From Sphingobacteriaceae bacterium (GTDB lineage: Bacteria; Bacteroidota; Bacteroidia; Sphingobacteriales; Sphingobacteriaceae): 64,000 nucleotides of DNA. The stretch is from the NCBI GenBank assembly GCA_029266635.1, contig JAQSWM010000002.1, forward strand, positions 186,001 to 250,000. The letters run 5' to 3'. Position 1 is the stretch's first letter. Every line of letters starts with the position of its first letter. The position numbers were made by a program, and so were the translations under genes. Of this stretch, positions 47,965 to 63,494 are shown one piece after another. The notes under the pieces were generated by a model that had not been told where the DNA came from, searched no databases, and was given only the letters and a program-made list of their open reading frames with translations.

Positions 47965-48300
47965 CTACGCAGCAGTTACCATTCTTTGGCATTCTTCGGC
48001 GCAAGCCCTACAAGCTTTAGCACATTCCTGACAATGTTCAGTGTGGTGATTAGCACATTCGTTTCCGCATTCTTCACATATCTTGACGCAGATTCTACAG
48101 ATTTCCATCGCGTAAGTACTTCCCATGCTCATCAATTGTGCGGCCGAGTAGCAGATTGCAGAACACTGCATGTCTAATTCGATGCAACGCGCCATCATTT
48201 TCACATCGTCTTCCTTCGTACAAGAACTTGCACAGTGATTACATATTGCAGCACATTCTAAACATGCTTCAATGCAACTTTTCCATTCGTGATATCCCAT
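47965..48300 (-). CDS. Cys-rich four-helix-bundle copper-binding protein (Csp-like, DUF326)
   Basis: A 111-residue cytosolic protein full of cysteines in CxxxC patterns: CIEACLECAAICNHC, CSAICYSAA, CRICVKICEECGNEC and CQECAKACRACAEEC. The spacing matches copper-storage proteins, whose cysteines face the core of a four-helix bundle and hold many Cu(I) ions. It lies at the downstream end of a long minus-strand run, suggesting that metal storage is coupled with efflux. Confidence 0.9.
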   Translation of the reverse strand: MGYHEWKSCIEACLECAAICNHCASSCTKEDDVKMMARCIELDMQCSAICYSAAQLMSMGSTYAMEICRICVKICEECGNECANHHTEHCQECAKACRACAEECQRMVTAA

Positions 48301-48379
48301 TTCGCTAGTTTTTATTATTCTTCACCCTTATAACATGAGGAGTAACCAGTGGTTCTATCTTTTTGAGTTTATGGACAAG

Positions 48380-48829
48380 TCATTTAGATACCGCTTGAAA
48401 TAGTTTGTCGGGATTTGAAACCAGGTCCGCACTAACTTCTCCAAAATCACCTCTCAAATACTTTAATGCAAATCTTTCCCTATCAATTTCTTTAAATGAC
48501 CGTACCCCTAACTTTCGGAACAGAGGAAGTGGCGGACACCAACCCTGAACTCCATGCTGCAACAGAAAAGTAAGAACAACTCCCGGCAAAATGAGCCATT
48601 TCTTATGTACCGTTGCTGCAAGTAATACACCGATTCCGGCAAGTGTGCTGGCGTTTGTAATCAGCATCCGGTCCATGTACCATTCTTTCTCCAGCTCAGC
48701 AATACGTTGCGACATTGTGGATTTATCCGCTGTAGCGTATTTACGGATATTATCTCTCAACTGAAGTTCAATTTCATCGTTTATTGAATCGGGAGTGTTT
48801 CGTTCAACTCTGTCTTGTTGCTTAGTCAT
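48380..48829 (-). CDS. DUF2892-type membrane protein
   Basis: A 149-residue protein. An N-terminal hydrophilic helix region is followed by RMLITNASTLAGIGVLLAAT and a second helix (LPGVVLTFLLQHGVQGWCPPLPLFRKLG), the DUF2892 pattern of the YgaP/rhodanese-linked inner-membrane proteins. The tail is charged. The conserved WCPPLP near the membrane may hold a functional Cys. Neighbouring sulfur genes make a link to sulfane sulfur plausible. Confidence 0.78.
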   Translation of the reverse strand: MTKQQDRVERNTPDSINDEIELQLRDNIRKYATADKSTMSQRIAELEKEWYMDRMLITNASTLAGIGVLLAATVHKKWLILPGVVLTFLLQHGVQGWCPPLPLFRKLGVRSFKEIDRERFALKYLRGDFGEVSADLVSNPDKLFQAVSK

Positions 48830-48867
48830 AGATATAGATGTTTTTTATTTGCAATTAATTTTTCTTG

Positions 48868-49578
48868 TTACTGGCTATCACTTTTTTTCGAGTATAGGTG
48901 ATCGGGCGCACCATGACGAATTAATATCCAGGCTATAATCAGGAAAATGACAGATATTCCTAAAAAGCTGTAGTTCCAAATCACAATATCGGTTGTGATT
49001 TCCCGAACATTATGTAGCTTTAAAATGTGATGGTTGATAACGCCTTCAACTATATTGAATATACCCCAACCAAGGAATAATCCGCCTATGAAGGTTTTCC
49101 AGGAAATTATGACATCGGTCCTGAAAAACAGCTTCACTAACAAGAACAGTCCTATGAGTACAACTATAAGGCAAAAGAAGTGGAAAATGCCATCCCAAAA
49201 CATATTGACACTTTTGTTTAGAAGTGTGGTTGGAGGTATTTTATTCGACAACATTTCGTGCCATTGAAGAATTTGGTGAAGTATTGTTCCGTCAACGAAA
49301 CCACCGATGCCTATCCCTAATGTAGTCGAGGCTGAAATTAAGGGAACCACCGTAATTTTTTGTTTATGTTCAGCAGGATGTCTTTTCTCTCTAGCGGCAG
49401 TTAAGATGGAGAGCAAAATAACGATGCCAGCCAGCACTATAAAAGCGAGCATCATTGTGAACAGATTAGGGTAAAATGTACTGTCGAAGATCGCCTTTTG
49501 CAGATCCTGATTGCACGTAGTACATGAATAGGCTTTTTCGCCAGCGAGCAGAAGTAAGGATAATAGAACTTTCTTCAT
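48868..49578 (-). CDS. DUF2243 membrane protein
   Basis: A 236-residue protein (start ATG 49578) with a signal-like N-terminus followed by SCTTCNQDL, then four or five helices. DUF2243 landmarks are GGFVDGTILHQILQWHEM, KSVNMFWDGIFHFF and FNIVEGVINHHILKLHNVRE, with conserved His that could bind metal. Function unknown. The cysteines at the N-terminus are unusual for the family and may face the periplasm. A GGGCGCACCA match to the tRNA end lies inside its 3' end (48904). Confidence 0.8.
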   Translation of the reverse strand: MKKVLLSLLLLAGEKAYSCTTCNQDLQKAIFDSTFYPNLFTMMLAFIVLAGIVILLSILTAAREKRHPAEHKQKITVVPLISASTTLGIGIGGFVDGTILHQILQWHEMLSNKIPPTTLLNKSVNMFWDGIFHFFCLIVVLIGLFLLVKLFFRTDVIISWKTFIGGLFLGWGIFNIVEGVINHHILKLHNVREITTDIVIWNYSFLGISVIFLIIAWILIRHGAPDHLYSKKSDSQ

Positions 49579-49628
49579 GATAGCGATCAACTTATACTTG
49601 AACTGTTCCGCAAAAGCTTTTGTTTTCT

Positions 49629-50201
49629 TTATTGTAAAAGCAAGCCCTTGATAAAATCGTTCGTTTCCTTAGAATCGTAATCTGCCAGTCCTTCATGCTG
49701 ATAAACCAGCTCCCCATTTTTGTTAATGATTATTGTTGTTGGTAAAGTTCCCTTAAAGACTTGTTCAGGAACTATTCCTGCGGGGATATATGTAGAAAAC
49801 CGATAGCGGTTCTTTTTAAAAAAAACCTCAGATTCCTGTAATTCGCCATCCACATTTGCCATAATGAACAGAAGATCTTCCTCACCCTTGAAATGCTCCG
49901 CGAGTTTATTGATAGATGGCATTTCAGCAAGACATGGCGGACACCATTTCGCCCAGAAGTTGACGAAAATAACCTTTCCTTTAGCGTCTGCCACGTCAAT
50001 TTCCTGGCCACCGACAGACCGGAAAATCGCAGAGGGAACAACAGACTGATTATTAGCTTTTGCAGGAACAAAATCTGGCTCATACAAGCCAGATTTTATA
50101 AGTCCTTTTAGAATAAAGCTTTTTGCTTCAGGATTGAGAGCAATTACTGCAAGCACCACCATACTGATGATGAAGCCGATATTCGATTTGATATACTTCA
50201 T
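49629..50201 (-). CDS. TlpA-family thioredoxin-like protein
   Basis: A 190-residue protein with an N-terminal membrane anchor (FIISMVVLAVIALNPEA) and a thioredoxin fold with the active site WAKWCPPCLAEMPS. In the periplasm it would reduce disulfides or hand electrons to Cys-containing proteins. The gene starts 1 bp before the stop of the adaptor gene, so it is co-transcribed with the RND pump. Confidence 0.9.
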   Translation of the reverse strand: MKYIKSNIGFIISMVVLAVIALNPEAKSFILKGLIKSGLYEPDFVPAKANNQSVVPSAIFRSVGGQEIDVADAKGKVIFVNFWAKWCPPCLAEMPSINKLAEHFKGEEDLLFIMANVDGELQESEVFFKKNRYRFSTYIPAGIVPEQVFKGTLPTTIIINKNGELVYQHEGLADYDSKETNDFIKGLLLQ

Positions 50202-50202
50202 T

Positions 50203-51303
50203 TTACTTCTTTATTTGAACAGCAGCACCCTCTTCCAGTTCTTCCGTTCCCGATTTTAAAATTCTGTCTGCAGCGGTCAGATCTCCAAAAACCTCCTGCA
50301 TTTCTTTTTTTCTGATTCCGAGTGCTACAGGAATTCTTTCAACGACTCCATTTTCAATCTTTAACACAAACACTCCCGATTGAGCCTGAACCACACTGCT
50401 TGCGGGTAACCATAGAGTAGAATCCGGTCGTTTAAGCATCAGGTTTACCTGCGCATATTCGCCTCCTGCCAAAGTTTGATTCCGGTTATCTACATCGAAC
50501 TCGACGGCTATCGATCGGTTTTGCTGATCCAGTAGACCACTGTTTCTCGACAATGATGCTTTGTGGGCTTTTCCGGGGCGATTGCTGACCGTAAAAGTAG
50601 CAAGGGTGTTTTTGGTTACCGAATGCGCGTGTTTTTCAGGAACGGAAACGGTTAGTCGCAGGCGTTCCTGCTGAGCGATAGTAAACAATGGCGTAGAATT
50701 ATTCTCACCGACTAATGCTCCAACAGAAACATTTTTGGAAACGATAGTACCGCTGAACGGGGCTATAATTCTCAGGTAGTCTTTCAGCTGGGCAGATGCT
50801 CCGGTCGATGCCTTCGCCGAATGATAGGCCGCGCTGTCACTACGGAGTTGCGCCTTCGCCCGGTCTAGTTCAATTTCTGCTACGGCACCGTTCTTCGCGG
50901 CAGCTTTTTTAAGTCGCTGGTAGGCTTGCCTGCTATACAGGTAGCTCTCATAGAGCTTCCGTTCATTGGATTGAACCGACAGGTACTGCTGACTAATTTC
51001 AGGTGCCTCCAACACCGCCAGAAGCTGACCTTTTTTTACCCTGCTGCCCCTGTCTACATAAAGCTTTTTGACAAATCCTTTTGCCTTTGCAAAAACGTCT
51101 ACCTGCTCGAAGGGCTTAAGCTCTCCGGGTAGTGACAGCGGATAAACCGGCTGGTCTGATAATGGACTGGTTACTTCAACTATAGGTGTTGAACTTGCTT
51201 TTCTATCGGTTTTTGTTTCTTCACTTTTGCCGGTTGAACAGGCGCTTAAAACGGCTGCCAGTCCGGAGGCAATTACAACTAATGCTATATTTTTAGATTT
51301 CAT
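50203..51303 (-). CDS. RND efflux periplasmic adaptor (lipoprotein)
   Basis: A 366-residue membrane-fusion protein with lipobox LSACS (Cys22). It has lipoyl halves (GSRVKKGQLLAVLEAPE and IIAPFSGTIVSKNVSVGALV), a coiled-coil hairpin (about 95-165), and the barrel and proximal domains. It starts inside the last codons of the permease gene (11-bp overlap). Unlike the czc adaptor it has no His-rich parts, so the substrate class is probably different. Confidence 0.9.
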   Translation of the reverse strand: MKSKNIALVVIASGLAAVLSACSTGKSEETKTDRKASSTPIVEVTSPLSDQPVYPLSLPGELKPFEQVDVFAKAKGFVKKLYVDRGSRVKKGQLLAVLEAPEISQQYLSVQSNERKLYESYLYSRQAYQRLKKAAAKNGAVAEIELDRAKAQLRSDSAAYHSAKASTGASAQLKDYLRIIAPFSGTIVSKNVSVGALVGENNSTPLFTIAQQERLRLTVSVPEKHAHSVTKNTLATFTVSNRPGKAHKASLSRNSGLLDQQNRSIAVEFDVDNRNQTLAGGEYAQVNLMLKRPDSTLWLPASSVVQAQSGVFVLKIENGVVERIPVALGIRKKEMQEVFGDLTAADRILKSGTEELEEGAAVQIKK

Positions 51304-54300
51304 AAACTTCTTTTTTTGAGATGATTTTAACAGGTTCTTTCGTCAGAATTATTCTTTCGGGATCGTCCGGATCAAGGGAATTGCTCGCGAGCGTTGCTTT
51401 GCCACGAACCATGACAAACAGATGAGGAAGTACCAGTAAAGAGGTAATGGTTGAAAGGATCAGACCGCCTATTACCGCCTGTCCCAAAGGTGCAATCTGC
51501 TCGCCGCCATCACCCATTCCCAAAGCCATCGGGATCATTCCTGCGATCATAGCCAGGGTTGTCATCATGATTGGTCTTAGTCTTGAAGAGACTGCAAGGA
51601 AAGCTGATAGCGAAGCTTCCATTCCTCGTTTCCTGTTTAGTTCAGCCTGATTTATCAGCAGGACGGCATTAGAGACCGATACTCCCACCGACATAATTAT
51701 TCCCATGTAGGATTGAAGATTTAATGTACTTCCGGCGGCAAGCAAGATCAGTAAACTCCCACCTAAAACCGCAGGCACTACCGACAGGATGAGTGCGGAA
51801 ACCGCGAAGGATTGATAATAGGCTGTAAGTAAAAGGAAGATCACTACAACTGCAACCACCAGGCCAGTTTGTAATCCATCCATCGTCTCGCGAAGCAGCT
51901 GCAATGTTCCTTCGGTTTTAACGATCACTCCCCGTGGTGCTTCTCCGACATTATTCAAGGCTTGTTCAACAGCTTTCGAAGCGGAGCCAAGATCCTTGTT
52001 ATAGGTATTTGCTTGAACGGTTACGTACCGGTTAGGCCCCTGCCTGTTCACCTGACCGGGCTGTTTGGTTAAGCGAAGCGTGGCTACATCTTCCAAAATA
52101 GGTCGCGCTGATCCGGATTTCAAAGGCAGCGAACGCAGATTGTCGAGTGATTGCATTTCTGCTTCCGGGATCTGTAGCTGCACCTGGAACACCAATCCTG
52201 ATTTCGGATCTACCCAAAGGTTTTTGTTGGTGAACCGCGTGGAAGAGGTCGCTATAGTCAGTGCTTTGGAAACTTCCTGCATGCTTAACCCAAATTGAGC
52301 AACTAATTCCCTGTCGACATCTATTTGGACACTCGGGTACTGAACCGGCTCCACCACCCGTACATCTCTAAAGAACGGAGTTTTCTTTAGTTCCTCTGAT
52401 ATTTTTCCGGCGTGTTGAACAGCAGTTTTCAGAGGTCCGGCAGCCACCTTTATCTGAATGGGAGTATTTGCGCCCTGACTCATAATCTTTTGCACCATTT
52501 CCATGGGCTCGAAAGTCAGCTGCAACTCCGGATATTTGGAGTTGACTGCTTTTCTGAGATTTTCCTTCAATTCTTCAACAGATCCAGAATAGACTCCCTG
52601 ATCAATCGATAATTGAAGAACCGACTCATGAGACCCACTGGTAAACAGGAAGATCGGATTGATCGCAGTAGTCGAAGGCTGTAGTCCTACGTAGGCTGAG
52701 CTAATTTTTACGGCATTGTCCGGCAGTTGCTTTCTGATCAGCAGAGTAACATCTTTCAGATATTTTTCTGCCTTCTCGAGCCTTGTACCCTGCGGTGCTG
52801 CAATTCGCAATTGAATATCTCCGCTGTTACTGGCTGGCAGAATATCGGTTCCGATAAGTAAAGCGGAAAGGCTGATCATCGCTACCACAACGACAGCATA
52901 GAGCGCGACCACCTTCTTTTTGTTGTTTGCCGCTTTTCGGGTCAGTAGTAAATAAGAGCGTTTGAATTTCTCAAAACGGGTGAGTTTCTTCTTATGCAAG
53001 CTCGTTTGGTGATGATGAAAATTATCGGTTTTCATCAGCCAGTTGGCTAAAATCGGAACGAAGGTCTGCGAAGCGATGAAAGATGCAATCATGGCAAAAG
53101 CAACGGCTAAAGACAGAGGCAGGAACATGTCTTTAGGGATCCCGGTCATCATAAATGAGGGAACCAGTACAGCCAAAATACAAAGCAGGATCAGTAGTTT
53201 GGGGATGGATATTTCCAGGAGGGCATCCAGAATAGCCCGGTCTTTGGGCTTCTCCATTTCAAAATGCTGGTGAATGTTTTCGATGGTTACCGTTGCCTCA
53301 TCTACCAGGATGCCGATCGCCAGAGCAAGACCGCTCAGCGTCATAATATTGATCGTCTGACCGAAAATATAAAGCATGATCACCGCCGAGAGGATCGCAA
53401 TCGGAATAGTAAGCACCACAATCAATGCGCCCCGTTTATCGCCCAGGAACAGCAGAACCATTAATCCGGTAAGGATGGCACCGAGAATTCCCTCGTGGAC
53501 AAGATTATTCAAAGCTCTTGAGATGTAGCCGGATTGGTCAAATACATAGTTCACCTTCACATCCTCCGGAAGAGCAGCTTCCAGCATCGGGATTGACTTT
53601 TTCAGGTTGTCGACGACGGTTAGAGTAGAGGCATCTGCTTTTTTGATCACCGGAAGGTACACCGAACGCTTTCCGTTAATGACAGCATATCCGGTTGTGA
53701 TATCCGCTGCATCTTCTACCGTTCCGATATCCTTCACAAAAACCGTAGTTCCGGAGCCTGTTCGAAGCGGCATGTTCAAAAACTCTTCCGGGCCTTTCGC
53801 CATAGTATTTACCGGACTCATCAGATTTTTATCGCCGATTCGGATATTTCCGGCAGGAGATGGGAAACTGTTTTTGGCAATGGCGGTTGTCACTTCCTCT
53901 GCCGACAAACCGTAGGACTGCATCAATCCTGGATCTACTTTTACCACAATCGTGCGTACATTCCCTCCAAATGGAGCAGGCGCTGTAACACCAGGAATGT
54001 TTACAAACATCGGCCGGATCTTGGTGAGTGCTAATGTTTGTAGTTCCGTTATCGTCCGCTTGGGGCTCTCAAATACGAGTTGTCCTACAGGTTGCGAACT
54101 GCCATCAAACCGCACTACCTGCGGAGGAATAGCGCCGGGTGGCAGAAGCGCCATCGCACGGGATACCTGGGCTGAAAGTTCTGCAGAGGACTGCGCCATA
54201 TTGGTGCCCGGATAAAACGTCAGCTTCATCAGGGTAAAACCCTGAATACTTTTAAAGTCGATATCCTTAACACCGCTGACGAATATGAGCAGTTTCTGGA

Positions 54301-54499
54301 ATTCGTTGGCCATAAAACCGTCCATGTAGGCCGGAGTTAAGCCACCGTAGGGCATGGCGATGTAAATAGCCGGAGATTCTATTTCTGGGAATATATCGAC
54401 ATTGATCTTTTTTATTGCTGTGAAGGAAAAGTAGGCAATGGCCAGCACCGCCACCATCACCGTGATGGGTTTCCTCAGAGCAAGTCTTATCATGTTCAT
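51293..54499 (-). CDS. RND efflux permease (HAE1/AcrB-like)
   Basis: A 1068-residue inner-membrane pump with 12 helices. Landmarks: N-terminal RKPITVMVAVLAIAYFS, the proton-relay helix LSGLALAIGILVDEATVTIENI, and the internal duplication after residue 540. The helix-4 pattern (GLALAIGILVDEATV) is that of the hydrophobe/multidrug class rather than the heavy-metal class. Substrate not predictable. Between the TolC gene and the adaptor in one operon. Confidence 0.93.
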   Translation of the reverse strand: MNMIRLALRKPITVMVAVLAIAYFSFTAIKKINVDIFPEIESPAIYIAMPYGGLTPAYMDGFMANEFQKLLIFVSGVKDIDFKSIQGFTLMKLTFYPGTNMAQSSAELSAQVSRAMALLPPGAIPPQVVRFDGSSQPVGQLVFESPKRTITELQTLALTKIRPMFVNIPGVTAPAPFGGNVRTIVVKVDPGLMQSYGLSAEEVTTAIAKNSFPSPAGNIRIGDKNLMSPVNTMAKGPEEFLNMPLRTGSGTTVFVKDIGTVEDAADITTGYAVINGKRSVYLPVIKKADASTLTVVDNLKKSIPMLEAALPEDVKVNYVFDQSGYISRALNNLVHEGILGAILTGLMVLLFLGDKRGALIVVLTIPIAILSAVIMLYIFGQTINIMTLSGLALAIGILVDEATVTIENIHQHFEMEKPKDRAILDALLEISIPKLLILLCILAVLVPSFMMTGIPKDMFLPLSLAVAFAMIASFIASQTFVPILANWLMKTDNFHHHQTSLHKKKLTRFEKFKRSYLLLTRKAANNKKKVVALYAVVVVAMISLSALLIGTDILPASNSGDIQLRIAAPQGTRLEKAEKYLKDVTLLIRKQLPDNAVKISSAYVGLQPSTTAINPIFLFTSGSHESVLQLSIDQGVYSGSVEELKENLRKAVNSKYPELQLTFEPMEMVQKIMSQGANTPIQIKVAAGPLKTAVQHAGKISEELKKTPFFRDVRVVEPVQYPSVQIDVDRELVAQFGLSMQEVSKALTIATSSTRFTNKNLWVDPKSGLVFQVQLQIPEAEMQSLDNLRSLPLKSGSARPILEDVATLRLTKQPGQVNRQGPNRYVTVQANTYNKDLGSASKAVEQALNNVGEAPRGVIVKTEGTLQLLRETMDGLQTGLVVAVVVIFLLLTAYYQSFAVSALILSVVPAVLGGSLLILLAAGSTLNLQSYMGIIMSVGVSVSNAVLLINQAELNRKRGMEASLSAFLAVSSRLRPIMMTTLAMIAGMIPMALGMGDGGEQIAPLGQAVIGGLILSTITSLLVLPHLFVMVRGKATLASNSLDPDDPERIILTKEPVKIISKKEVYEI

Positions 54500-54505
54500 C
54501 TTGTT

Positions 54506-55879
54506 CTATTTGAATTGGTTAGAGAGATAGCTAAAGTCGCCTGATAGTTCCGAGCGGGCAATCACCTGATCCCAGAATTGCTGGTAGGCTTCAATGTTTA
54601 CCTTTTCGGATTGCTGAAGAAGTAACTGGATCTGCAGCAGTTCGGTCAGATTGATCAGACCATTCTGATAGCGCGATAAATACAGTTCATACGCTTTCCG
54701 GGCCTTATCAACCGCGCCATTGGTCTTTTCAACCCGCTTCTTACTTTCAGTTAAGCGGCTGTTAACAGATTGTAATCCGGTATTTAACTGCAGGCTCTGG
54801 GCCTCAAATCTTGATTGAGTAGCAGCTTGTTGTTGCTTAATCCGGTTTCGTTCTGTGATACTATTGAAGGCACTGCTGATATTCCAGGTCAGACCAAGGC
54901 CAATTAAATAATTACTATTCTGATTATTGAAACCAGACGACCATCCGGAATTTACGACGCCATCACTCCCAATGCCACTTCCTCGTGAACTAAGTCCCCC
55001 AAGAATCGACACGCTTGGAAACAGTTTTCGGGCGGCAACTTCAGTCCTTAACTTGTCATTCTCCAACTGATCCGAGATAACATTTAAGTAGGGATGACCA
55101 GTGGCTGATGTATCCGCAGGCGAAAGCGGAGTGGCTGAAAGATAGTTTGAAAAGCTAAAGCCAACGTTTTTTTCGTCAACAGGTACTAGCTCTGTCAAAC
55201 GGACTTTGCTTGCTTCAAGTTGACCCTTCCAGTCGTCGAGCTCTCCCAACGTTTGCAGGTAGGAAGAAGCGGCAAGCAGGGTATCTGCACCTGGTTTTAA
55301 GCCTGCTTCAGCCAAGGTCTTGGAAAGTTCTACGATTTCCTTGACGCGTTCCGCATTGTCTTTTGCCCATTGCAGTTTTGAGCCGGTATAGAGAATATCG
55401 GAATACAAGCGGCTTACCTTGGCCTGTACCGACAATTTAGTCGCATCAAAAGTGCTTTCTGCCTTTTGGATGTTCGCTTGTGCAGCCTGTATGGCTTTCC
55501 TTTGTCTACCGAATTCGAAAACGTGCCAGTCCATGAGAACTGACCCAAAAGTGTTTGCAGCGGCTGAAGCTCCGGAAATTGCCGGATTGCCACTTACATT
55601 GAATGTACCCGGTAAAGGGAAGAATGCACCTGTACTTCCGGCAAAAGTGCCGTAAGAGTTTTGCACCTGCAACTGTAAATTGGGTAGAAAGTCGTTTTGC
55701 AGTTCCCTTTTCTGATATTCTGATTCCCGTATCAGGGCCTGTTTTTCCGACAAGCCCGGGTACCCCGAAAAGGCGGCTTCCCACGCCTCCGAAAGGGATA
55801 GTCGTCTCTCTTGCGAGAAAGACTTAAGATTGACAAGCAGCATGAAAACCGCCGTCAAATAAAGCTTCTGCTTTATCAT
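54506..55879 (-). CDS. TolC-type outer-membrane efflux protein
   Basis: A 457-residue outer-membrane factor with a signal peptide (TAVFMLLVNLKSFSQE) and the two OEP repeats; landmarks are LSLSEAWEAAFSGYPGL, then LEASKVRLTELV and YQNGLINLTELLQIQLLLQQSEKV near the end. It completes the tripartite pump with the permease (6-bp gap) and adaptor. Confidence 0.92.
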   Translation of the reverse strand: MIKQKLYLTAVFMLLVNLKSFSQERRLSLSEAWEAAFSGYPGLSEKQALIRESEYQKRELQNDFLPNLQLQVQNSYGTFAGSTGAFFPLPGTFNVSGNPAISGASAAANTFGSVLMDWHVFEFGRQRKAIQAAQANIQKAESTFDATKLSVQAKVSRLYSDILYTGSKLQWAKDNAERVKEIVELSKTLAEAGLKPGADTLLAASSYLQTLGELDDWKGQLEASKVRLTELVPVDEKNVGFSFSNYLSATPLSPADTSATGHPYLNVISDQLENDKLRTEVAARKLFPSVSILGGLSSRGSGIGSDGVVNSGWSSGFNNQNSNYLIGLGLTWNISSAFNSITERNRIKQQQAATQSRFEAQSLQLNTGLQSVNSRLTESKKRVEKTNGAVDKARKAYELYLSRYQNGLINLTELLQIQLLLQQSEKVNIEAYQQFWDQVIARSELSGDFSYLSNQFK

Positions 55880-55964
55880 GCTTATAAAAATTTTAAGAAA
55901 TGAATAGAATTAAAGCTGCCTGTTAAGGCAGGAAATGATCAAGCCAGATTGGCTTAGGGAAGGA

Positions 55965-56456
55965 TCAAATCAGAAGTAATCTATTCTTTATATAGAGGGG
56001 TGTGCTATTGAAAGCAAATGACGCTTTCGAAAAATAAGTTGAAGCGGCGTTATGAAGAAGAGCGAGAAGCGCAGCTGCAATAAGGCCAAGAAGAGTAGGT
56101 AAAAATAATGCCAGGGGCAATACTGAATCCAGTGCTTTCCAGCTTTTTGCATCGACATTTTGAAGTGTCGTTTCATCATCTGCCGAGCATAACTGAGAAC
56201 TACCAACTTGTACCTCATCGTTTGTGGCCCTGATCTTCTTAACCCCACTAGCCATGCTAGATTCCGTACGAACTGAACCTTGAAGGAATGCTTCAATACT
56301 TTTCCTCACCGCACAGGTTGATAACAGCAAGCAAGTAACAAGTAGTCCCAAAATGATAGTTTTAAGGCTGCTTGCTTTCCTGACACTGCTTATTATCCCG
56401 GAGTTGAACATCGGCTGCAAAGATAAGGGCTTAAGGGGCAGAACCACAAGTAACAT
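55965..56456 (-). CDS. Small protein of unknown function upstream of the RND operon
   Basis: A 163-residue frame (148 if it starts at the Met 16 codons in). It has a lipoprotein-like stretch ILGLLVTCLLLSTCAVRKS, a polar middle, and a C-terminal helix (LALFLPTLLGLIAAALLALL). Small Cys-containing proteins often precede RND operons in Bacteroidota, so a genuine gene is likely although its role is unknown. Its ATG directly abuts the stop of the upstream gene. Confidence 0.6.
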   Translation of the reverse strand: MLLVVLPLKPLSLQPMFNSGIISSVRKASSLKTIILGLLVTCLLLSTCAVRKSIEAFLQGSVRTESSMASGVKKIRATNDEVQVGSSQLCSADDETTLQNVDAKSWKALDSVLPLALFLPTLLGLIAAALLALLHNAASTYFSKASFAFNSTPLYIKNRLLLI

Positions 56457-57884
56457 TTAAATTAGGTGGAAGTTTTGATAGTTCTTTACATGGAATGGAC
56501 AGTGCATTGCCAAGTACGAAACTACTGCGTCAAATAATTTGATCTTCGTATTCTGTCGGTTTTTTCCATATTTCTCCGGCACTCCCTGAGAGGTAATAAA
56601 AGCGGCACTATACACCTTCTCTTTGCTCACAGGTTCATCTCCGATAAAGAGTTGTTGAATTCTGCTTCCTTTCGGATTTTCGATCCTCATGAATACCGTT
56701 AATCCGAGACACCTTTTAACATATCCACCCATTTGGCCTAAGGGATCTGTTGAGAAAGTCCGTTCAAGATTTTCTTCCAGCATGTCCTTAATTTCCGATC
56801 CTGTAATTTCGACAGTGGAAATCTCAGGATTCATCGGGGCTAAATTATAAATATCCCACTTTGTAATAGGGCCGGCTGGGATTGGTGCGCCGTAGCGCCA
56901 TCCATTCGAGAAACAAACATCGGCTTTAGTCACTACCTGTACAGCCGAAAGAAGTAAATGGTCGGCAGAACTGTTCAAAGTGTCATACCTGTGCAAAACG
57001 GTTGAAGATTCACCAATAATTTGTTTTTGAAGAGATTCATACCGTTCCTGGCAAGCCTTTATCAATCCTTCTATTTCCTGATCCGGAGCCAAAGACTCCT
57101 GAACCTCTCTAAGTTGGTAGTTGAAACTTTTAATCCTCTTTGATTCTATTTCCAGTTCCAAATGTCCAAGAAACGAACCATGGCAACCACTTTGAATAAC
57201 AATTGTGTCATCCACCAAAACCGGGTCAAATAATCGGTTATGAGTATGGGCACTTAGGCAGACATCAACGCCCCGAACCTGCGATAGTATTTTGACATCT
57301 TGAGGGAAACCATTATGAGATAATAGTATCACAAGATCAGCACCCTGATCCCTTATTTCTTCAATAAATTTAGGCAGTTCATCAATGCCGGTAGTTACAC
57401 TTATTCCATCACTGAATTGTTCCGGCATTGTTTTGTCGATGATATTGGAGCAAATTCCAATGGTAGCTACTTTTATTTCTCCCACCTGTTGCAGAGAATA
57501 TGGCTTCAGCAGGCGCTCTTTTTCGGCATTATAAACGTTGATCCCTAGAATGGGATAGCTAAGTTGTTTGGACAGATGCAACAACTGCTGCGGGCCAAAC
57601 GCAAAATCCCAGTGCCCTACCATCGCGTCGAATCTTATTTCATTTAGGATTGGTATGAGAACTTCTCCCTTCGACTCAACTACGGGGAGCGTACCATGAA
57701 ATGTATCGCCGCCATCAAAAACAAGAGTATGAGGATTATCCTTTCTGATGCTTTTGATCAGAGTCTGAATCCTCGAATATCCCCCCGCAGTTCTTACAAC
57801 ATTTCCATTCCCCGTAAAAAATAGTTCAGGGTGTAGTTCTAAATATCCGTGAACGTCATTAATAAAAGCGATTGATAGTTTCAT
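56457..57884 (-). CDS. 5'-nucleotidase/SoxB-like metallophosphoesterase
   Basis: A 475-residue protein with the N-terminal calcineurin-like domain (FINDVHGYLE, VFDGGDTFHG, VGHWDF, LLSHNGFPQD and LSAHTHNRL giving the dinuclear metal site) and the C-terminal 5'-nucleotidase domain (ITGSEIKDMLEENLERTF). Family members hydrolyse nucleotides, and SoxB relatives release sulfate from SoxY-bound sulfur. No signal peptide is seen, which is odd for either role. The DsrE and rhodanese neighbours favour a sulfur-related task, but this is inference. Confidence 0.82.
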   Translation of the reverse strand: MKLSIAFINDVHGYLELHPELFFTGNGNVVRTAGGYSRIQTLIKSIRKDNPHTLVFDGGDTFHGTLPVVESKGEVLIPILNEIRFDAMVGHWDFAFGPQQLLHLSKQLSYPILGINVYNAEKERLLKPYSLQQVGEIKVATIGICSNIIDKTMPEQFSDGISVTTGIDELPKFIEEIRDQGADLVILLSHNGFPQDVKILSQVRGVDVCLSAHTHNRLFDPVLVDDTIVIQSGCHGSFLGHLELEIESKRIKSFNYQLREVQESLAPDQEIEGLIKACQERYESLQKQIIGESSTVLHRYDTLNSSADHLLLSAVQVVTKADVCFSNGWRYGAPIPAGPITKWDIYNLAPMNPEISTVEITGSEIKDMLEENLERTFSTDPLGQMGGYVKRCLGLTVFMRIENPKGSRIQQLFIGDEPVSKEKVYSAAFITSQGVPEKYGKNRQNTKIKLFDAVVSYLAMHCPFHVKNYQNFHLI

Positions 57885-57894
57885 ACATTGCTAT

Positions 57895-58344
57895 TTATGG
57901 ATGAACAATGGCCCAGCCCTCATGATGTCGAATAATAATTTCTCCATTACCGGAAGGGACATACGAAATAAAAGGGAACAATGCACTCTTGTCGATCTTT
58001 CTTTCCCGCAGAGTGTTTTCGCACATGGCAAGGATCACCCCTTTCTGTTGCAGATCTTTCAGTTTTGCCTCAAAAGCCCCCGTTTTTTCATACACCTTCA
58101 CACCGTCTCCAAAGACAATTAATTCGACTTGAAGCTTGCCTTTCAATCGCGGGTCTTCCAGTACATTTCTAATGTTTTTGAGCGTTCCGTTGATTTTTTT
58201 CTCGTCTCCATTGTTTAAAACGTATAAGGCTTTATAAGAATTCAATGTCGCTTTGGCCCCGGTAAATGGACTAGTTTCCTGAGTCCGTGCAGTGCTGAGG
58301 AAAACAAATGCAAAAAGTGTAAGAAGAATTGCTATTCTTTTCAT
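57895..58344 (-). CDS. Exported DsrE-family protein
   Basis: A 149-residue protein with a signal peptide (LLTLFAFVFLSTARTQ). The DsrE fold is seen in KALYVLNNGDEKKINGTL, VELIVFGDGVKVYEKTG and VILAMCENTLRERKID, where the Cys of AMCENTL occupies the usual sulfur-carrier place. DsrE proteins carry sulfane sulfur. Follows the MBL/rhodanese gene by about 60 bp on the same strand. Confidence 0.87.
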   Translation of the reverse strand: MKRIAILLTLFAFVFLSTARTQETSPFTGAKATLNSYKALYVLNNGDEKKINGTLKNIRNVLEDPRLKGKLQVELIVFGDGVKVYEKTGAFEAKLKDLQQKGVILAMCENTLRERKIDKSALFPFISYVPSGNGEIIIRHHEGWAIVHP

Positions 58345-58401
58345 AGTGTTATCTGATTATATGGTCAAGGAGGCTAGCGATGCTAACCCCTCAAATGCTA
58401 G

Positions 58402-59760
58402 CTATTTTTGAAACTCCTTTATCGCTTCGCTGATATCATACACTTCTGCTTTGCCTTTCAGCTTGGAAGAAAGCAGCGAACTTGCAGCGGCGCTACGATA
58501 GCCTCCGGCACAATGAACAGCGACCGGCTTATCCGTTGGAATTTCATTTGCCCGGTCACGGAGTTCCGCTAAGGGAATGGACAGGCTATTCGGGAAGATT
58601 CTTTGTTGTTTTATTTCAGACGGATTTCTCACATCAACGATAGTATATTCTTCCGGATTTTCCTTTAGGTTATTGAGATCTAAAAGTGCTTCTTCCTGCT
58701 CCGCAAAATCAAGAACAAAGCCTTCCTTTATCTGCATTTCATAACCAATAGATGCAGCCCGTTCGATCATCTTCTTTAATTGCTTTTCGTCTTTAGCCGC
58801 CAGGTAAAAGCTTTCTCCCGGTTTGATAATACTGCCCAGCCAGGTTTCAAACTTTTCTCCTTCCATGATATTGACTGAATGAGCAAGATGTCCTTTCTTG
58901 AAATCTTTGTCGTTCCTTACATCCACCACCCAAAGCTGCTTGTCCAGATCTTTTGCATCGCCTTCAGAACTGATCTTCTTCCCGATATGCACACCTGCCA
59001 CACTTGCTGAAAAATCAGGTGCTCCTTTTTTATTCAGATCAACATTGTAGGAAAAGTAAACAGGAATAAAAGGGAGGTCCGAGGTTAACTCTTTCACAAA
59101 TTGTTCTTCCGGCATGTCTTGCAACGACCAGTTATGCTGTTTTTCTTCGCCGATGGTAGAGCTGCTGGCATCTCCTAAAGCCTTTCCGCAAAGTGTTCCG
59201 GCTCCGTGTCCGGGATAGAGTACGACATCGTCGTCCAATTTTGCCAGTTTCTGTCTCAGTGAAAAATACATCTGCTTAGCGAGGTGTTCGCGTAAAGCTT
59301 CCTGCTCTCCTCCGAATTCACGAAGGTCGGGGCGGCCGCAGTCGCCTACAAACAAGGTATCACCGGTAAAAACAGCCTTGTCTTTTCCCTCATGTTCTAA
59401 AACGATGGAAATGCTGTCGGGAGAATGCCCGGGTGTATTCAAAGCCTTCAGCTTAATTTTCCCAAACTCGATTGTATCACCTTCATCAAAAGGGGTGATG
59501 GAATAACTTGCCTTCATCAGCTTGCTTCCGTAGACCTTAACTCGGGTTTTATTCTGGATTTCCCGGTGACTGCTTACAAAATCCGCATGAGGATGAGTCT
59601 CAATCACTCCAATTATTTCAGCCTTGTGCTCCTCCGCAAAGCGATAATATTGCTCAGGATTGCGCGATGGATCTATTAATACGATGCGATTTTCGCATTC
59701 ACTTAGAACTGCATAACTGTACTGGGCTAAATACTTGTCTTCAAACTGTTGTACTTTCAT
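58402..59760 (-). CDS. MBL-fold protein with two rhodanese domains (persulfide dioxygenase-like)
   Basis: A 452-residue protein (ATG 59760). The metallo-beta-lactamase half has ETHPHADFVSSH, FTGDTLFVGDCGRPDL and LYPGHGAG, the ETHE1/persulfide-dioxygenase metal set. The first rhodanese domain (about 245-335) lacks the active Cys (FYLAAKDEKQ in its place). The second has it: VAVHCAGGYRSAAASS. It should act on glutathione or other persulfides, moving sulfur to sulfite or thiosulfate. It diverges from the CoADR gene, and the shared promoter region has a 16-bp palindrome. Confidence 0.9.
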   Translation of the reverse strand: MKVQQFEDKYLAQYSYAVLSECENRIVLIDPSRNPEQYYRFAEEHKAEIIGVIETHPHADFVSSHREIQNKTRVKVYGSKLMKASYSITPFDEGDTIEFGKIKLKALNTPGHSPDSISIVLEHEGKDKAVFTGDTLFVGDCGRPDLREFGGEQEALREHLAKQMYFSLRQKLAKLDDDVVLYPGHGAGTLCGKALGDASSSTIGEEKQHNWSLQDMPEEQFVKELTSDLPFIPVYFSYNVDLNKKGAPDFSASVAGVHIGKKISSEGDAKDLDKQLWVVDVRNDKDFKKGHLAHSVNIMEGEKFETWLGSIIKPGESFYLAAKDEKQLKKMIERAASIGYEMQIKEGFVLDFAEQEEALLDLNNLKENPEEYTIVDVRNPSEIKQQRIFPNSLSIPLAELRDRANEIPTDKPVAVHCAGGYRSAAASSLLSSKLKGKAEVYDISEAIKEFQK

Positions 59761-59788: not shown

Positions 59789-59863
59789 CAAAAGTATGTC
59801 CAGAATCACTTTTGTTCTGTGACAATTGTCACCGAGCTCCCTTCTGGATTTTGGGGAGATTTG
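59789..59863. promoter_or_regulatory. Divergent promoter with Crp/Fnr-type palindrome
   Basis: TGTGACAATTGTCACC at 59818-59833 (perfect core GTGACAATTGTCAC) fits the TGTGA-N6-TCACA pattern. Towards the MBL gene, TACTTTTG (minus strand, 59796-59789) fits TAnnTTTG. Towards the CoADR gene, GAGATTTG at 59856-59863 is a weaker fit. The palindrome centre is about 42 bp from either predicted start, the class II activator position. Confidence 0.65.
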
Positions 59864-59881: not shown

Positions 59882-61558
59882 GTGAAATACATTATTATAG
59901 GCGCTGTAGCAGGCGGAGCCAGTACTGCAGCCAGGTTAAGAAGATTAAACGAACACGCAGAAATCGTCATTTTTGAGAAGGGTCAATATATCTCCTACGC
60001 GAATTGCGGGCTTCCTTATTACATCGGAAATGTGATCAAGGATAGAAACAAACTCTTCGTCCAGACAGCCACTTCCTTTGCTGCAAGATTCAATGTAGAT
60101 GTGAGAGTAAGTACCGAAGTGACCGCCATCAATCCTTCCGTAAAAACAGTAAGCGCCATTAATCTTTTGACCGGCGAAGAGTACACAGAATCGTATGATA
60201 AGCTAGTTTTATCGCCCGGCGCCAGTCCCATTCGCCCTGCATTACCTGGCATTCAGAATGAGGGAATTTTTACTGTTCGAAATGTAGGTGACACCGATTA
60301 TATTAAAGGCTACGTTACAGAAACAAAACCGCAAAAGGCCGTTGTGATTGGTGCAGGGTTTATTGGATTAGAAATGGCCGAAAATTTACATGAACTCGGT
60401 CTCGATGTAAGTGTGGTGGAAATGAGCAATCAAATCCTTGCCCCGGTGGATCTTCCTATCGCTGCTCTTGCGCAGAAACATCTTAGAGAAAAAGGGATTC
60501 ATTTACATTTGAACACTGCTGTAACCGGCTTTGAAAAAGAAGATGGCCGCTTGAAAGTGCAACTGCAGGATAAGGCGGACCTGGAAGCGGATCTGGTGAT
60601 CCTTTCGATCGGTGTCAGGTCGGACACAAAGCTGGCCGAAAATGCAGGTTTAAAAATAGGACAAGCAAGAGGGATATGGGTAAATGAATATCTCCAAACT
60701 TCCGATCCTGATATCTATGCTGTTGGGGATGCCATCGAATATGCTAACCCGATATCTGGTCAGACGACAATTACTTTTCTTGCAGGTCCGGCAAATAAGC
60801 AGGGTCGCATTTGTGCAAATAACCTGGTGTTCGGCAATAATCAGAAATACAATGGTTCGATCAATACCGCTATTGTGAAGCTTTTCGACCTGACTCTGGG
60901 AGCTGCTGGAATGGCTGTAAAACATTTGGAACGAAATAAAATCCCTCACCTCACTGCAACCATTCATGGAAATTCGCACGCGGGATACTATCCCGGTGCC
61001 CAACTCATGACTATCCAGATTGCTTTTTCTCCTGAAAACGGACAATTGTTAAGTGCCCAGGTTATTGGAGGAGAAGGAGTAGATAAACGGCTTGATGTGC
61101 TTTCTTCAGTAATCAAAAACAAGGGGACGATTTATGATTTGATTGAATTTGAACAAGCTTACGCGCCTCCATTCTCATCCGCTAAAGATCCTGTCAATAT
61201 GGTAGGCTTTGTAGCGGAAAATATTTTGCTCGACCGATTAAAAGTTATCGAATGTTCAAAGCTGAATTCAGTAGAACCCCATGCTGCACTAATTGATGTT
61301 CGTACCCCAGCCGAATTTGCAGGAGGAACTATTGAAGGAGCTATAAATATTCCGCTTGACGAGATAAGAAATCGCCTGTCTGAAGTGCCGGTCGACAGAC
61401 CGCTTTATATTTTCTGTCAGCAGGGAATGCGTGGCTACCTGGCACAACGAATTCTAGTTCAAAATGGGTTTGAGAATGTTACGAACCTTTCCGGCGGTTA
61501 CCTCTTGTGGAAGACGTATAAGGATGAGATGGAGCAAGCGGAAGCAGAAGTTTTGTAG
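59882..61558 (+). CDS. CoA-disulfide reductase with C-terminal rhodanese domain
   Basis: A 558-residue flavoprotein. It has an N-terminal FAD-binding loop (IIGAVAGGASTAARLRRL), active-site Cys42 in YANCGLPYYIG, a NAD(P)H-binding loop (VVIGAGFIGLEMAENLHELG) and a second FAD segment (YAVGDAIEY). The C-terminal rhodanese domain has the loop FCQQGMRGYLA. CoADR-rhodanese fusions reduce CoA persulfide/polysulfide, giving sulfide. It pairs functionally with the divergent MBL/rhodanese gene. The start codon is GTG or ATG near 59882; the call follows the conserved start. Confidence 0.92.
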   Translation: MKYIIIGAVAGGASTAARLRRLNEHAEIVIFEKGQYISYANCGLPYYIGNVIKDRNKLFVQTATSFAARFNVDVRVSTEVTAINPSVKTVSAINLLTGEEYTESYDKLVLSPGASPIRPALPGIQNEGIFTVRNVGDTDYIKGYVTETKPQKAVVIGAGFIGLEMAENLHELGLDVSVVEMSNQILAPVDLPIAALAQKHLREKGIHLHLNTAVTGFEKEDGRLKVQLQDKADLEADLVILSIGVRSDTKLAENAGLKIGQARGIWVNEYLQTSDPDIYAVGDAIEYANPISGQTTITFLAGPANKQGRICANNLVFGNNQKYNGSINTAIVKLFDLTLGAAGMAVKHLERNKIPHLTATIHGNSHAGYYPGAQLMTIQIAFSPENGQLLSAQVIGGEGVDKRLDVLSSVIKNKGTIYDLIEFEQAYAPPFSSAKDPVNMVGFVAENILLDRLKVIECSKLNSVEPHAALIDVRTPAEFAGGTIEGAINIPLDEIRNRLSEVPVDRPLYIFCQQGMRGYLAQRILVQNGFENVTNLSGGYLLWKTYKDEMEQAEAEVL

Positions 61559-61623: not shown

Positions 61624-62427
61624 TTATTGATTTTCAATAACCTTATTTGTTGAAGTATGATAAATCGTTGAAAACGGAGGAACACTTTTTGTAATCCATA
61701 CGTTACCACCGATAATACTATGATGACCTATCACTGTGTGACCGCCTAAAACAGTTGCATTCGCGTAAATTACTACCGAGTCTTCAACAGTTGGATGTCG
61801 TTTCGTTTCAGCCAGTTCTTTTTCGACACTAAGTGCGCCTAAAGTCACACCTTGATAGACCTTAACATGTTTCCCTATTTTACAGGTTTCGCCGATCACA
61901 AGTCCTGTTCCATGATCGATGTAGAAATACTCGCCAATTTCAGCTCCGGGATGAATATCAATACCGGTTTGAGCATGAATGCATTCGGTAATAATCCGGG
62001 GAAGAAGGGGAATTCCAAGCTTTAAGAGCGAATGTGCAATCCGATAGAAGCAAATAGCAAAAAAGCCTGGGTAAGCTCTAACCACTTCGAAACGCGATTT
62101 AGCTGAAGGATCACCCTGAAAAATAGCATCTACATCTGTGTTTAGAACCCGGTATAGTTCAGGGATATTATCGAAAAACTGTTCTGCTTTTAATTCATTG
62201 TCACAGCTATCACAAGCTGTAGTCCCTTTGAATATTTTCAAAAGCTGCTCTTTTAACAAATCAAATCGATTGTCTATTTCCGCAGTGCTGGGGTAAATTA
62301 TTTTATTGTGCTCCGGATATAAAAGGAAAATAAGGTCTTGTACCCAACCTTTAATGATGTCGTTAGACGGAACAGACTCTACAACTTGTTGTTTCTCCTT
62401 CAGATGACGTAAAAGTTCCTGATTCAT
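61624..62427 (-). CDS. cysE: Serine O-acetyltransferase (EpsC/CysE-type)
   Basis: A 267-residue enzyme making O-acetylserine for cysteine synthesis. A helical N-terminal domain is followed by the left-handed beta-helix with GIDIHPGAEIGEYFYIDHGTGLVIGET, VKVYQGVTLGAL and TVLGGHTVIGHHSIIGGNVW; the His of DHGTG and the catalytic Asp/His are present. The N-terminal part holds CDSC, an unusual Cys pair. It is followed on the same strand by DUF302; next to sulfur-handling genes, it may use recovered sulfide. Confidence 0.92.
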   Translation of the reverse strand: MNQELLRHLKEKQQVVESVPSNDIIKGWVQDLIFLLYPEHNKIIYPSTAEIDNRFDLLKEQLLKIFKGTTACDSCDNELKAEQFFDNIPELYRVLNTDVDAIFQGDPSAKSRFEVVRAYPGFFAICFYRIAHSLLKLGIPLLPRIITECIHAQTGIDIHPGAEIGEYFYIDHGTGLVIGETCKIGKHVKVYQGVTLGALSVEKELAETKRHPTVEDSVVIYANATVLGGHTVIGHHSIIGGNVWITKSVPPFSTIYHTSTNKVIENQ

Positions 62428-62441
62428 CTGCTGTTATATAA

Positions 62442-62828
62442 TTAGAGTGAATCGATTGCTTCCTTCAATTTCAGGCTCACTTCGCCAGCTATTGCTTCCA
62501 GATTTTGATTTTGAACCGCAGACATCGTTTCCATAGGATTGACTGCAGATACTTCTACTTTACCGTCGGTGCGTTCCTGCACCAGTATATTGCAAGGTAG
62601 CAATACGCCGATTCTATACTCTTGTTCAATTGCATGGTAGGCCATTTTCGGGTTGCAAGCACCGAGAATACGGTACTCACGAAAGTCGACGTTAAGTTTT
62701 TCTCTGAATTTTTCCTTTAGATCTATTTCAGTAATGACTCCAAACCCTCTGTCTGCCAGTGCTTGTTTAACCTTTGTTAAAGCCGTTTCAAAAGTGTTGC
62801 TTACTTCCCTGGTATGATAATAATTCAT
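62442..62828 (-). CDS. DUF302 protein
   Basis: A 128-residue protein (ATG 62828; ATG 62837 is also possible). DUF302 landmarks are ALTKVKQALADRGFGVITEID, then LGACNPKMAYHAIEQEYRIGVLLPCN, with two cysteines 24 residues apart. The family is small and often found near sulfur or metal-stress genes. Upstream of cysE (14-bp gap), so co-transcribed. Confidence 0.87.
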   Translation of the reverse strand: MNYYHTREVSNTFETALTKVKQALADRGFGVITEIDLKEKFREKLNVDFREYRILGACNPKMAYHAIEQEYRIGVLLPCNILVQERTDGKVEVSAVNPMETMSAVQNQNLEAIAGEVSLKLKEAIDSL

Positions 62829-62950
62829 CTGGTCCATTGCTAAATGTTCACAATTAGAGATGGAACACTCCCTGGCGCATTAAGTTCTATGTTTCTGGCA
62901 AGTGAGGCAATTGCAATAAGTTTGCCAGGGGTACTAAAAACTGGAGAGGC

Positions 62951-62985
62951 AAAAAATCAAAAAGGATCCGTTTAAAGATCCTTTT
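62951..62985 (-). terminator. Terminator of the DUF983 gene
   Basis: AAAAGGATC (62960-62968) and GATCCTTTT (62977-62985) form a perfect 9-bp stem. Read on the minus strand, GATTTTTTG follows it. The stem includes the gene's stop codon. Confidence 0.75.
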
Positions 62986-63337
62986 GATATTTAATTGGCG
63001 ACAAATAATGAAGTAATATCGTCCTTGAACACCTAAAATTGATTGCCATGAGTAAGATAACGGGTGAGATGGTAATTGCCATCAAGAGCCATAAATTACT
63101 TTCTCCAACAGTATAAAAAGCGGCTATGCCCGCTATCACTAATTCCGCTACCGTAAATGCGTAACTAACGTACATCGCGGCGTAGAAGAAGCCCGGTTCT
63201 ATCTCGTATTTTTGATTACAGTATGGGCATCTTTCATGCATAGTAGCGTACTTCCAACTAAATATTGAGCTCTTATAAATATCGCCCTGTTTACACCGTG
63301 GACATTTTTCATTAATCACAGCTGATATCTTAGTCAT
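62972..63337 (-). CDS. DUF983 small membrane protein
   Basis: A 121-residue protein with an N-terminal Zn-ribbon-like motif (CPRCKQGDIYKSS, then CPYCNQKYE), followed by two membrane helices. This is the DUF983 layout. The two CxxC pairs could bind Zn. Function unknown. It lies opposite the DUF6132 gene, sharing a promoter region with a palindrome. Confidence 0.85.
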   Translation of the reverse strand: MTKISAVINEKCPRCKQGDIYKSSIFSWKYATMHERCPYCNQKYEIEPGFFYAAMYVSYAFTVAELVIAGIAAFYTVGESNLWLLMAITISPVILLMAINFRCSRTILLHYLSPIKYQKDL

Positions 63338-63403
63338 CTCGATCCCTTCCTTAAAGTTTTACACTAACACTGACCGGGGCTCGTAAAAGTTGCCCGACTA
63401 ATA

Positions 63404-63477
63404 CAAAAGTAAGGAGTTGATATAGCGTCTTTGGTGACAAAAGTTACCGAACCGTCTCGTTACCGAAATTAGCTTTG
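63404..63477. promoter_or_regulatory. Divergent promoter with Crp/Fnr-type palindrome
   Basis: GGTGACAAAAGTTACC at 63433-63448 resembles the site at 59818. TACTTTTG on the minus strand (63411-63404) and TAGCTTTG on the plus strand (63470-63477) both fit TAnnTTTG. The distance from the minus -7 element to the palindrome is 29 bp, the same as in the other promoter. Confidence 0.62.
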
Positions 63478-63494
63478 TAAGAAATTTGTTGACT

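Follow-up and report, generated by a model that had tools for sequence, protein, structure and literature searches.

A probable mobile sulfane-sulfur detoxification island with its own RND pump and a leaderless SoxB-type enzyme in a Sphingobacteriaceae bacterium

Several bacterial systems that handle thiosulfate and sulfane sulfur have been described, among them the Sox system (SoxB-SoxYZ-SoxXA) and the staphylococcal cst-type system, which presumably combines a CstB-like persulfide dioxygenase (PDO)-rhodanese with TauE and a CoA-persulfide reductase; to our knowledge the export of sulfane or elemental sulfur across the envelope is poorly understood. A TsdA-SoxB pathway of Erythrobacter flavus takes thiosulfate to zero-valent sulfur, with SoxB-type enzymes clustered with a metallo-beta-lactamase (MBL)-rhodanese gene and proposed to act on tetrathionate rather than SoxYZ, and with extra SoxB-like proteins annotated as 5'-nucleotidases (PMC7608252). 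Genes for resistance-nodulation-division (RND) pumps near sulfide and persulfide genes are already in print for Proteobacteria, namely in the Azospira PSOX operon (PMC5358917) and in the neighbourhoods of sulfane-sulfur-responsive ArsR (PMC12423496). The locus considered here lies in a Sphingobacteriaceae bacterium, in a window of 64,000 nucleotides (the whole stretch of DNA that was analysed, positions 186001-250000 of contig C16 in the 3.6-Mb genome G000), where a minus-strand run of eleven genes (47965-59760) had been taken in the initial annotation as a hint of one shared function, perhaps copper-thiolate export or storage, or a joint response to persulfide and metal toxicity. Comparison of genes and promoters leads us to propose, with moderate confidence, that the genes at 49629-59760 make up one arm of a mobile island for detoxifying sulfane sulfur and thiosulfate, which has an RND pump of its own and is under a Crp/Fnr-type regulator.

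All eleven open reading frames were found in the order originally described, which 5' to 3' is MBL-double rhodanese, DsrE, SoxB-type hydrolase, small membrane protein, TolC, RND permease, adaptor, TlpA, DUF2243, YgaP-TM-like and Csp (Table 1). The short gaps likewise stood, being at most 85 bp throughout with one 11-bp overlap (57, 10, 0, 85, 6, -11, 1, 50, 38 and 79 bp in the same order, the TlpA-DUF2243 gap of 50 bp becoming 38 bp if DUF2243 begins at the TTG at 49590). The MBL gene starts at an ATG at 59760, with the frame remaining open to 59787. The eleven-gene run is merely the left arm of a larger island, which extends past the window to about contig position 261551 with a YeeE/YedE pair, a second MBL-rhodanese, TauE, DsbD, TlpA, a thioredoxin and a Crp/Fnr regulator. 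By sequence similarity the island is like the cst-type system in holding homologues of both the PDO-rhodanese (matching 3r2u, which we take to be CstB) and the CoA-persulfide reductase, together with TauE. Unlike the cst-type system it has a Crp/Fnr-type regulator gene and operator pattern, and adds the RND pump, DsrE, TlpA/DsbD, YeeE/YedE and the SoxB-like enzyme.

The nearest named relative at the locus is Pelobium manganitolerans (Bacteroidota), which shares 27.7 kb at 90.0% identity (window position 49639 to contig position 263300) and then 7.4 kb at 88.4%, compared with 78.4% DNA identity over the rpoB region. The left edge of the shared block falls at the 3' end of TlpA (49639), beyond which the Pelobium copy goes on with other genes. 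The higher identity of the block than of the rpoB region, together with this sharp edge, indicates horizontal transfer, such that by sequence comparison the eight-gene module from MBL-rhodanese to TlpA is part of a horizontally transferred island. Flavobacterium hibernum has 18.2 kb in common with Halpernia at 97.1% and 5.5 kb with Pedobacter at 95.5%, and sulfur handling would appear to move between Bacteroidota families as a unit.

A putative operator, the palindrome GTGACAATTGTCAC, separates the eight-gene module from the divergent reductase gene. It occurs once in the window (shuffle mean 0.03, with one copy in 3 of 100 shuffles), and GTGAC-N4-GTCAC has three copies genome-wide, all inside the island (contig 245819, 255921 and 260428). 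One of them heads the MBL-to-TlpA operon together with the divergent reductase gene, another heads the TauE/MBL/YeeE-YedE unit, and the third heads the thioredoxin/TlpA/DsbD unit. All copies also fall within the sulfur island in Pelobium (3/3; G102), in G016 (3/3, of which one precedes MBL-rhodanese, one precedes YeeE and one separates TauE from a Crp-family gene) and on a Pontibacter plasmid (4/4). In 12 of 15 sites TTTG stands exactly 26-29 nt after the palindrome (shuffle mean 0.15, maximum 2 in 2000 runs), six of the 12 being homologous pairs from this genome and Pelobium so that about nine cases are independent; the window copy reads TACTTTTG. Taking TAnnTTTG to be the Bacteroidota -7 element, this spacing would put the palindrome centre near -42, presumably the class II position of Crp/Fnr activators. 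A Crp/Fnr-family gene (contig 260841-261551) is the sole regulator annotated in the island, and the distribution and spacing of the sites suggest that the units probably belong to a single Crp/Fnr-type regulon, which spans about 26 kb and runs past the end of the window.

Across the class, the composite operator-promoter pattern was matched 75 times, in 55 of 395 genomes, compared with 11 matches for its backward control. Of the 75 loci 30 were examined; a gene of the rhodanese, MBL-rhodanese, TauE or YeeE/YedE type was present in 17 of them and a Crp-family gene in eight. Several observations speak against so simple a picture: 13 of the 30 composite loci have no clear sulfur gene, G113 holds no operator site, G065 has five sites but none where its sulfur genes cluster, and 96 of 200 relatives contain the bare palindrome, which by eye shows no excess over the backward control. 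The notion of a sulfur-only motif was rejected on the 96 relatives and the 13 composite loci. If the proposal is right, a short operator-promoter signature would find sulfur islands. At L194 a composite site precedes a peroxiredoxin-like gene (by reading), a hint that thiol peroxidases may belong to related regulons. A generic sigma-70 scan was uninformative (24 found, 24.6 expected).

The third gene had been called 5'-nucleotidase-like; the gene is real and its identity is amended here to SoxB type, from the best NCBIfam model and the best PDB sequence. The model is SoxB (TIGR04486; 314.9 bits over profile positions 114-550 of 556), with a score below the cut-off of 550 where Paracoccus SoxB reaches 836, and the PDB sequence is SoxB 2wdc (E 7.8e-48), which also matches the predicted structure (predicted local distance difference test, pLDDT, 89.5) with Z 41.0 and a root-mean-square deviation of 2.2 over 473 residues. 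The active site has GHWDF and DPLGQMGGYVKR, to be compared with SHWEF and DPYYQQGGDMVR in canonical SoxB and GNHDF in nucleotidase-type paralogues. The HWxF and DPxxQxGG motifs are thus kept, and H91 and W92 are invariant across 20 sequences; in SoxB, as we understand it, His-Trp replaces the Asn-His of nucleotidases and DPxxQxGG belongs to the active site. The protein begins at the first strand of the fold (N-terminus MKLSIAFINDVHG) with an in-frame stop upstream, and no signal peptide was seen by eye, relatives starting alike.

From an alignment of 71 rows (nine of 70 family members shorter than 455 aa, fragments or split genes, were left out) a 62-row tree was built by a quick method after nine near-identical rows were omitted, and raised long-branch and composition warnings. 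In it 37 rows, the leaderless proteins from Bacteroidota and Alphaproteobacteria, group as a single clade with an SH-aLRT support of 97; the neighbouring long branch is a Bacillota (Sporosarcina) plasmid protein, and the 38-row grouping that includes it has an SH-aLRT of only 73. Relatives on plasmids of Hymenobacter, Bradyrhizobium, Pontibacter, Sphingobium and Sporosarcina lie among sulfur genes. Three points weigh on the other side: the fold scores are tied (41.0 for 2wdc, 40.6 for the 5'-nucleotidase 3ive, both from the predicted structure), a nucleotidase-type paralogue reaches 281 bits with the SoxB model, which does not separate the two, and the Pelobium SoxB-like gene (L041:8713-10108, also L051) is split over two reading frames. 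True 5'-nucleotidase identity is disfavoured by the active-site motif and the tree, with the tied fold score and the paralogue counting the other way. The block around the split Pelobium gene is still about 90% identical. Islands of marine Flavobacteriia (L066, L068, L073, L075, L078, L080, L083, L085, L092; L069, L072, L074, L076, L085, L093) hold further SoxB-superfamily paralogues. These are either lipoprotein-like, with 'GNWEV', or nucleotidase-like, with 'GNHDF', and their neighbours often include DsrE, DoxX or a TsdA-like cytochrome.

The enzyme is like the Sox system in its SoxB fold and in the HWxF and DPxxQxGG motifs, and unlike it in having no leader peptide, a score under the SoxB cut-off and no SoxY in its genome. 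The search for Sox carriers covered SoxY only, SoxZ lying outside it. SoxY (PF13501) had no match in this genome and none above cut-off among 200 relatives, where one sub-threshold match was seen and 14 named controls gave no positive; in a second search it was found in none of 12 genomes and plasmids with leaderless or long SoxB-like genes and in both of two canonical sox plasmids. TsdA (PF21342) was present in seven of 12 genomes or records searched, with no match in this genome, Pelobium, G016, G065 or the genome of L064. In the absence of matches to SoxY and TsdA, the classical Sox pathway and the TsdA-SoxB pathway are both incomplete here. The locus differs from that of E. flavus in that the SoxB-like enzyme is leaderless, no TsdA match occurs in the genome and an RND-TlpA-DsrE module is present. 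We infer that the enzyme most likely hydrolyses a cytoplasmic thiosulfonate.

The RND permease was compared across 200 relatives, the best three candidates per genome being scored. Thirty-five hits reached E 1e-200 or better and were divided by an identity gap between 61% and 51%, with 18 hits in 18 genomes at 61% or more, forming the clade, and 17 at 51% or less. The neighbourhoods of all 18 clade pumps and of six of the 17 weaker pumps were read. TlpA lies in the same run in 16 of the 18 clade loci, directly after the adaptor in 15 and upstream in G038, and in 14 of the 18 the stretch read contains one or more of DsrE, SoxB type, MBL-rhodanese, YeeE/YedE, TauE or DsbD, while TlpA or sulfur genes were found in none of the six distant loci (Fisher p 2e-4 for TlpA linkage, ignoring relatedness). 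The SoxB-like gene occurs in 46 named-genome loci, 18 of which also hold the RND clade (at least 63% identity). Several genera repeat the set of small protein, TolC, RND, adaptor and TlpA, accompanied by DsrE, the SoxB-like gene or both; Hymenobacter plasmids have the pump, TlpA and sulfur genes again, and a Pontibacter plasmid the sulfur genes. This recurrence is more than chance, and by sequence the pump is a member of a sulfur-linked, TlpA-associated clade. A dedicated sulfur role is made less secure by the clade pumps of G098 and G077, for which the stretch read shows no TlpA and no sulfur gene, by those of G054 and G111, which have TlpA alone, by the 28 of 46 SoxB-like loci without a clade pump (some loci being incomplete), and by the deletion of the sulfide-induced RND-SQR operon in Azospira, which left the H2S oxidation rate unchanged (PMC5358917). 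G054 also has a second, divergent RND unit outside the clade (L128:13500-19000), adjoining its clade pump.

The mobility of the island and the two clade pumps without TlpA or sulfur genes would also fit a general drug or organosulfur exporter that hitch-hikes in a mobile stress island, co-localisation being mere accretion, and the best NCBIfam model of the permease is indeed multidrug HAE1 (NF033617; 522 bits, below the cut-off of 1250). This seems unlikely given the contrast between 16 of 18 clade pumps and none of six distant pumps in TlpA linkage, the like gene order in different families and the position of the pump in an operator-headed unit. Of the AcrB relay residues D407 and R971 are kept, with D408 changed to E and K940 to S, leaving the relay incomplete. 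The AlphaFold model of the permease was poor (pLDDT 53.7) and was not used.

Another possibility is that the pump exports metal-sulfide or metal-thiolate complexes formed at high sulfide or persulfide, so that its role under sulfur stress would be protection from metal toxicity and not sulfur export in itself. Export of metal sulfides was proposed for an RND-SQR-adaptor operon of Azospira suillum with high expression and a Bar-seq fitness signal in H2S oxidation (PMC5358917). The closest PDB permeases by sequence are the heavy-metal pump ZneA and then MdtB, and probable copper/heavy-metal genes, from translations read, lie 2 kb right of the sulfur genes in the stretch shared with Pelobium. The equivalents of CusA Met 573/623/672, in what we take to be the numbering of the copper-binding triad, are however R, I and I both in the window protein and across all clade rows, retaining none of the three (M, M, M in CusA) in an alignment of distant proteins from which two rows of the residue list (L128_15978, L140_15413) are excepted as non-members. 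The heavy-metal CusA/CzcA model (TIGR00914) scores 391.6 bits, below its cut-off of 701, and the recurrent partners of the pump are thiol and sulfur proteins, so that this explanation too is judged improbable.

The claim of a single function is probable for the RND pump, TlpA, DsrE and the sulfane-sulfur genes, as the set recurs and one operator type heads the units; it does not extend to DUF2243, YgaP-TM-like and Csp. Conservation of order divides in the same way, with the eight-gene module recurring and these last three seldom or never with it. Neither Csp nor YgaP-TM-like had a match in 57 other loci or in a second set of 20 (BLASTP, E 1e-4 and 1e-6), and DUF2243 had one in the same loci (L052, 30%). 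Since the trio also lies outside the block shared with Pelobium, its members are judged, on sequence comparison, to be neighbours of this copy only within the loci scanned, not members of the sulfur unit. The 47965-48300 gene is, by sequence, similar to solved Csp3, a cytosolic copper storage protein (41.1 bits with the Csp1 model, below the cut-off of 100). This genuine Csp3-like gene, on the same strand with gaps of 38-79 bp, is what favours the idea that all eleven genes jointly serve copper-thiolate export and copper storage. With the trio all but absent from related clusters, the shared block stopping at TlpA and an RND without the CusA Met ligands, that idea is very improbable and the copper-thiolate proposal is left unsupported, the copper link having little comparative support. 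Two exceptions count in its favour and against our division of the run: the probable copper genes (by reading) inside the Pelobium-shared block, and a Sphingobium plasmid (L152:3712-4963) where a DUF2243 gene adjoins the DsrE gene of a sulfur cluster with a leaderless SoxB-like gene, from which DUF2243 may itself have a sulfur role. Two further labels gave way: the 'DUF2892' gene matches YgaP-like_TM at 18.1 bits, below the cut-off of 25.3, and the 'small Cys protein' is instead small and membrane/lipoprotein-like, with no Pfam match. In the other sulfur unit a second such protein ('SCPLKKAI', contig 259358-259759), resembling the one ahead of TolC, is encoded between the thioredoxin and TlpA genes.

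For the favoured detoxification island, the recurrence of the gene set and its order, the operator pattern shared by the units, the horizontal identity, the presence of a leaderless SoxB-type enzyme where SoxY has no match, and the TlpA-linked RND clade were all taken directly from sequences, and the following scheme would accommodate them. In the cytoplasm the MBL-rhodanese would oxidise persulfides to sulfite or thiosulfate, the CoA-persulfide-reductase-like protein would reduce persulfides and polysulfides, and the leaderless SoxB-like enzyme would cleave a thiosulfonate (R-S-SO3-, derived from thiosulfate or polythionate) to sulfate and sulfane sulfur. TauE and YeeE/YedE probably transport sulfite and thiosulfate. 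In the periplasm DsrE and TlpA would carry or reduce sulfane sulfur, with electrons reaching TlpA from the island DsbD; DsrE, with a signal peptide (by eye) and one conserved Cys (in AMCENTLR; 25 family members listed), is a candidate sulfur carrier. RND pumps generally draw substrate from the periplasm or outer leaflet, and the simplest role for the tripartite pump would therefore be to expel surplus periplasmic sulfane-sulfur products such as polysulfide, zero-valent sulfur or thiol conjugates, the substrates of both pump and SoxB-like enzyme being predictions.

A bolder and more tentative proposal, which we regard as rather doubtful, is a mobile SoxYZ-free pathway joining a cytoplasmic SoxB-type thiosulfohydrolase to an RND clade that expels zero-valent or sulfane sulfur, under a Crp/Fnr-family sulfur sensor with class II operators. 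If true, it might explain how elemental sulfur is expelled from bacterial cells. The favoured reading, if right, would give the RND clade a testable sulfur substrate, and a group of '5'-nucleotidases' that extends over more than one phylum would be re-annotated as SoxB-type enzymes lacking a leader. No paper on this Bacteroidota combination or on a Crp/Fnr-type sulfur regulon was found in the open-access PMC literature. Since earlier papers already note RND genes in the vicinity of sulfur genes, what is new here is how the genes are combined, together with the leaderless SoxB clade and the operator pattern. The proteobacterial RND loci, likened by gene partners and not by pump clade, have SQR or ArsR regulators as partners, where this locus has TlpA, DsrE, the SoxB-like gene and a Crp/Fnr-type site.

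Labels marked 'by eye' or 'by reading' were taken from the sequences, with no predictor or Pfam run behind them; this holds for thioredoxin, small rhodanese, DUF2892 and MFS labels in surveyed loci, where selected families only were run against Pfam.

Table 1. Features of the gene run and its surroundings, in window coordinates.
Feature	Position	Strand	Basis
Csp3-like; judged non-member of the sulfur unit	47965-48300	-	Pfam DUF326; PDB 5fig E 5.4e-24
YgaP-TM-like; adjoins the sulfur unit, judged non-member	48380-48829	-	sub-threshold match
DUF2243; adjoins the sulfur unit, judged non-member	48868-49578/49590	-	Pfam DUF2243
TlpA-type membrane-anchored thioredoxin (WCPPC), last gene of recurrent unit	49629..50201	-	Pfam Redoxin/AhpC-TSA
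RND periplasmic adaptor	50203..51303	-	Pfam HlyD_D23; TIGR01730 216.9 bits, above cut-off 94.9
RND permease, TlpA-associated clade	51293..54499	-	Pfam ACR_tran; clade comparison; residues
TolC-family outer-membrane channel	54506..55879	-	Pfam OEP
Small membrane/lipoprotein-like protein ('SCAVRKSI...YIKNRLLLI')	55965..56456	-	relatives are the small protein ahead of TolC in related loci
Leaderless SoxB-type hydrolase, 475 aa	56457..57884	-	Pfam Metallophos + 5_nucleotid_C; motifs GHWDFAFG, DPLGQMGGYVKR
DsrE family	57895..58344	-	Pfam; PDB 1l1s E 3.7e-13
MBL-fold + double rhodanese (persulfide dioxygenase-rhodanese type), first gene of unit	58402..59760	-	Pfam (2 rhodanese stretches); PDB 3tp9 E 1.9e-59, 3r2u E 4.2e-53
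TACTTTTG, putative Bacteroidota -7 element, starts 22 nt after operator	59789..59796	-	TAnnTTTG, presumed consensus
Palindrome GTGACAATTGTCAC, putative Crp/Fnr-type operator between divergent units	59819..59832	.	window and genome counts
CoA-disulfide/persulfide reductase-rhodanese fusion, divergent	59882..61558	+	Pfam; PDB 3icr E 3.6e-167, 8a56 (CoA-persulfide reductase) E 4.1e-141
Middle of island: hexapeptide acetyltransferase, DUF302, DUF983, DUF6132, end of MFS-like gene (by reading)	61624..64000	.	Pfam, reading

The left flank of the run consists of CTnDOT-type conjugation genes and a RadC-type gene, the tra genes there comprising TraG P-loop, CtnDOT_TraJ, Transposon_TraM, a coupling protein and DUF4138. 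Window positions 12000-47855 correspond to a CTnDOT-type conjugative element (coupling protein, TraG, TraJ, TraM, DUF4138), with an RND permease-TolC domain fusion (1442 aa, 21754-26082) and a P-type ATPase (29083-31104) as cargo. On the other side, right of the sulfur genes, contig positions 263572-270596 (L009 from 15572 into L177) hold the probable copper/heavy-metal block, known from translations only, with a TCPMHPEV protein and a His-rich P-type ATPase-like protein, within the 7.4 kb that are 88.4% identical to Pelobium.

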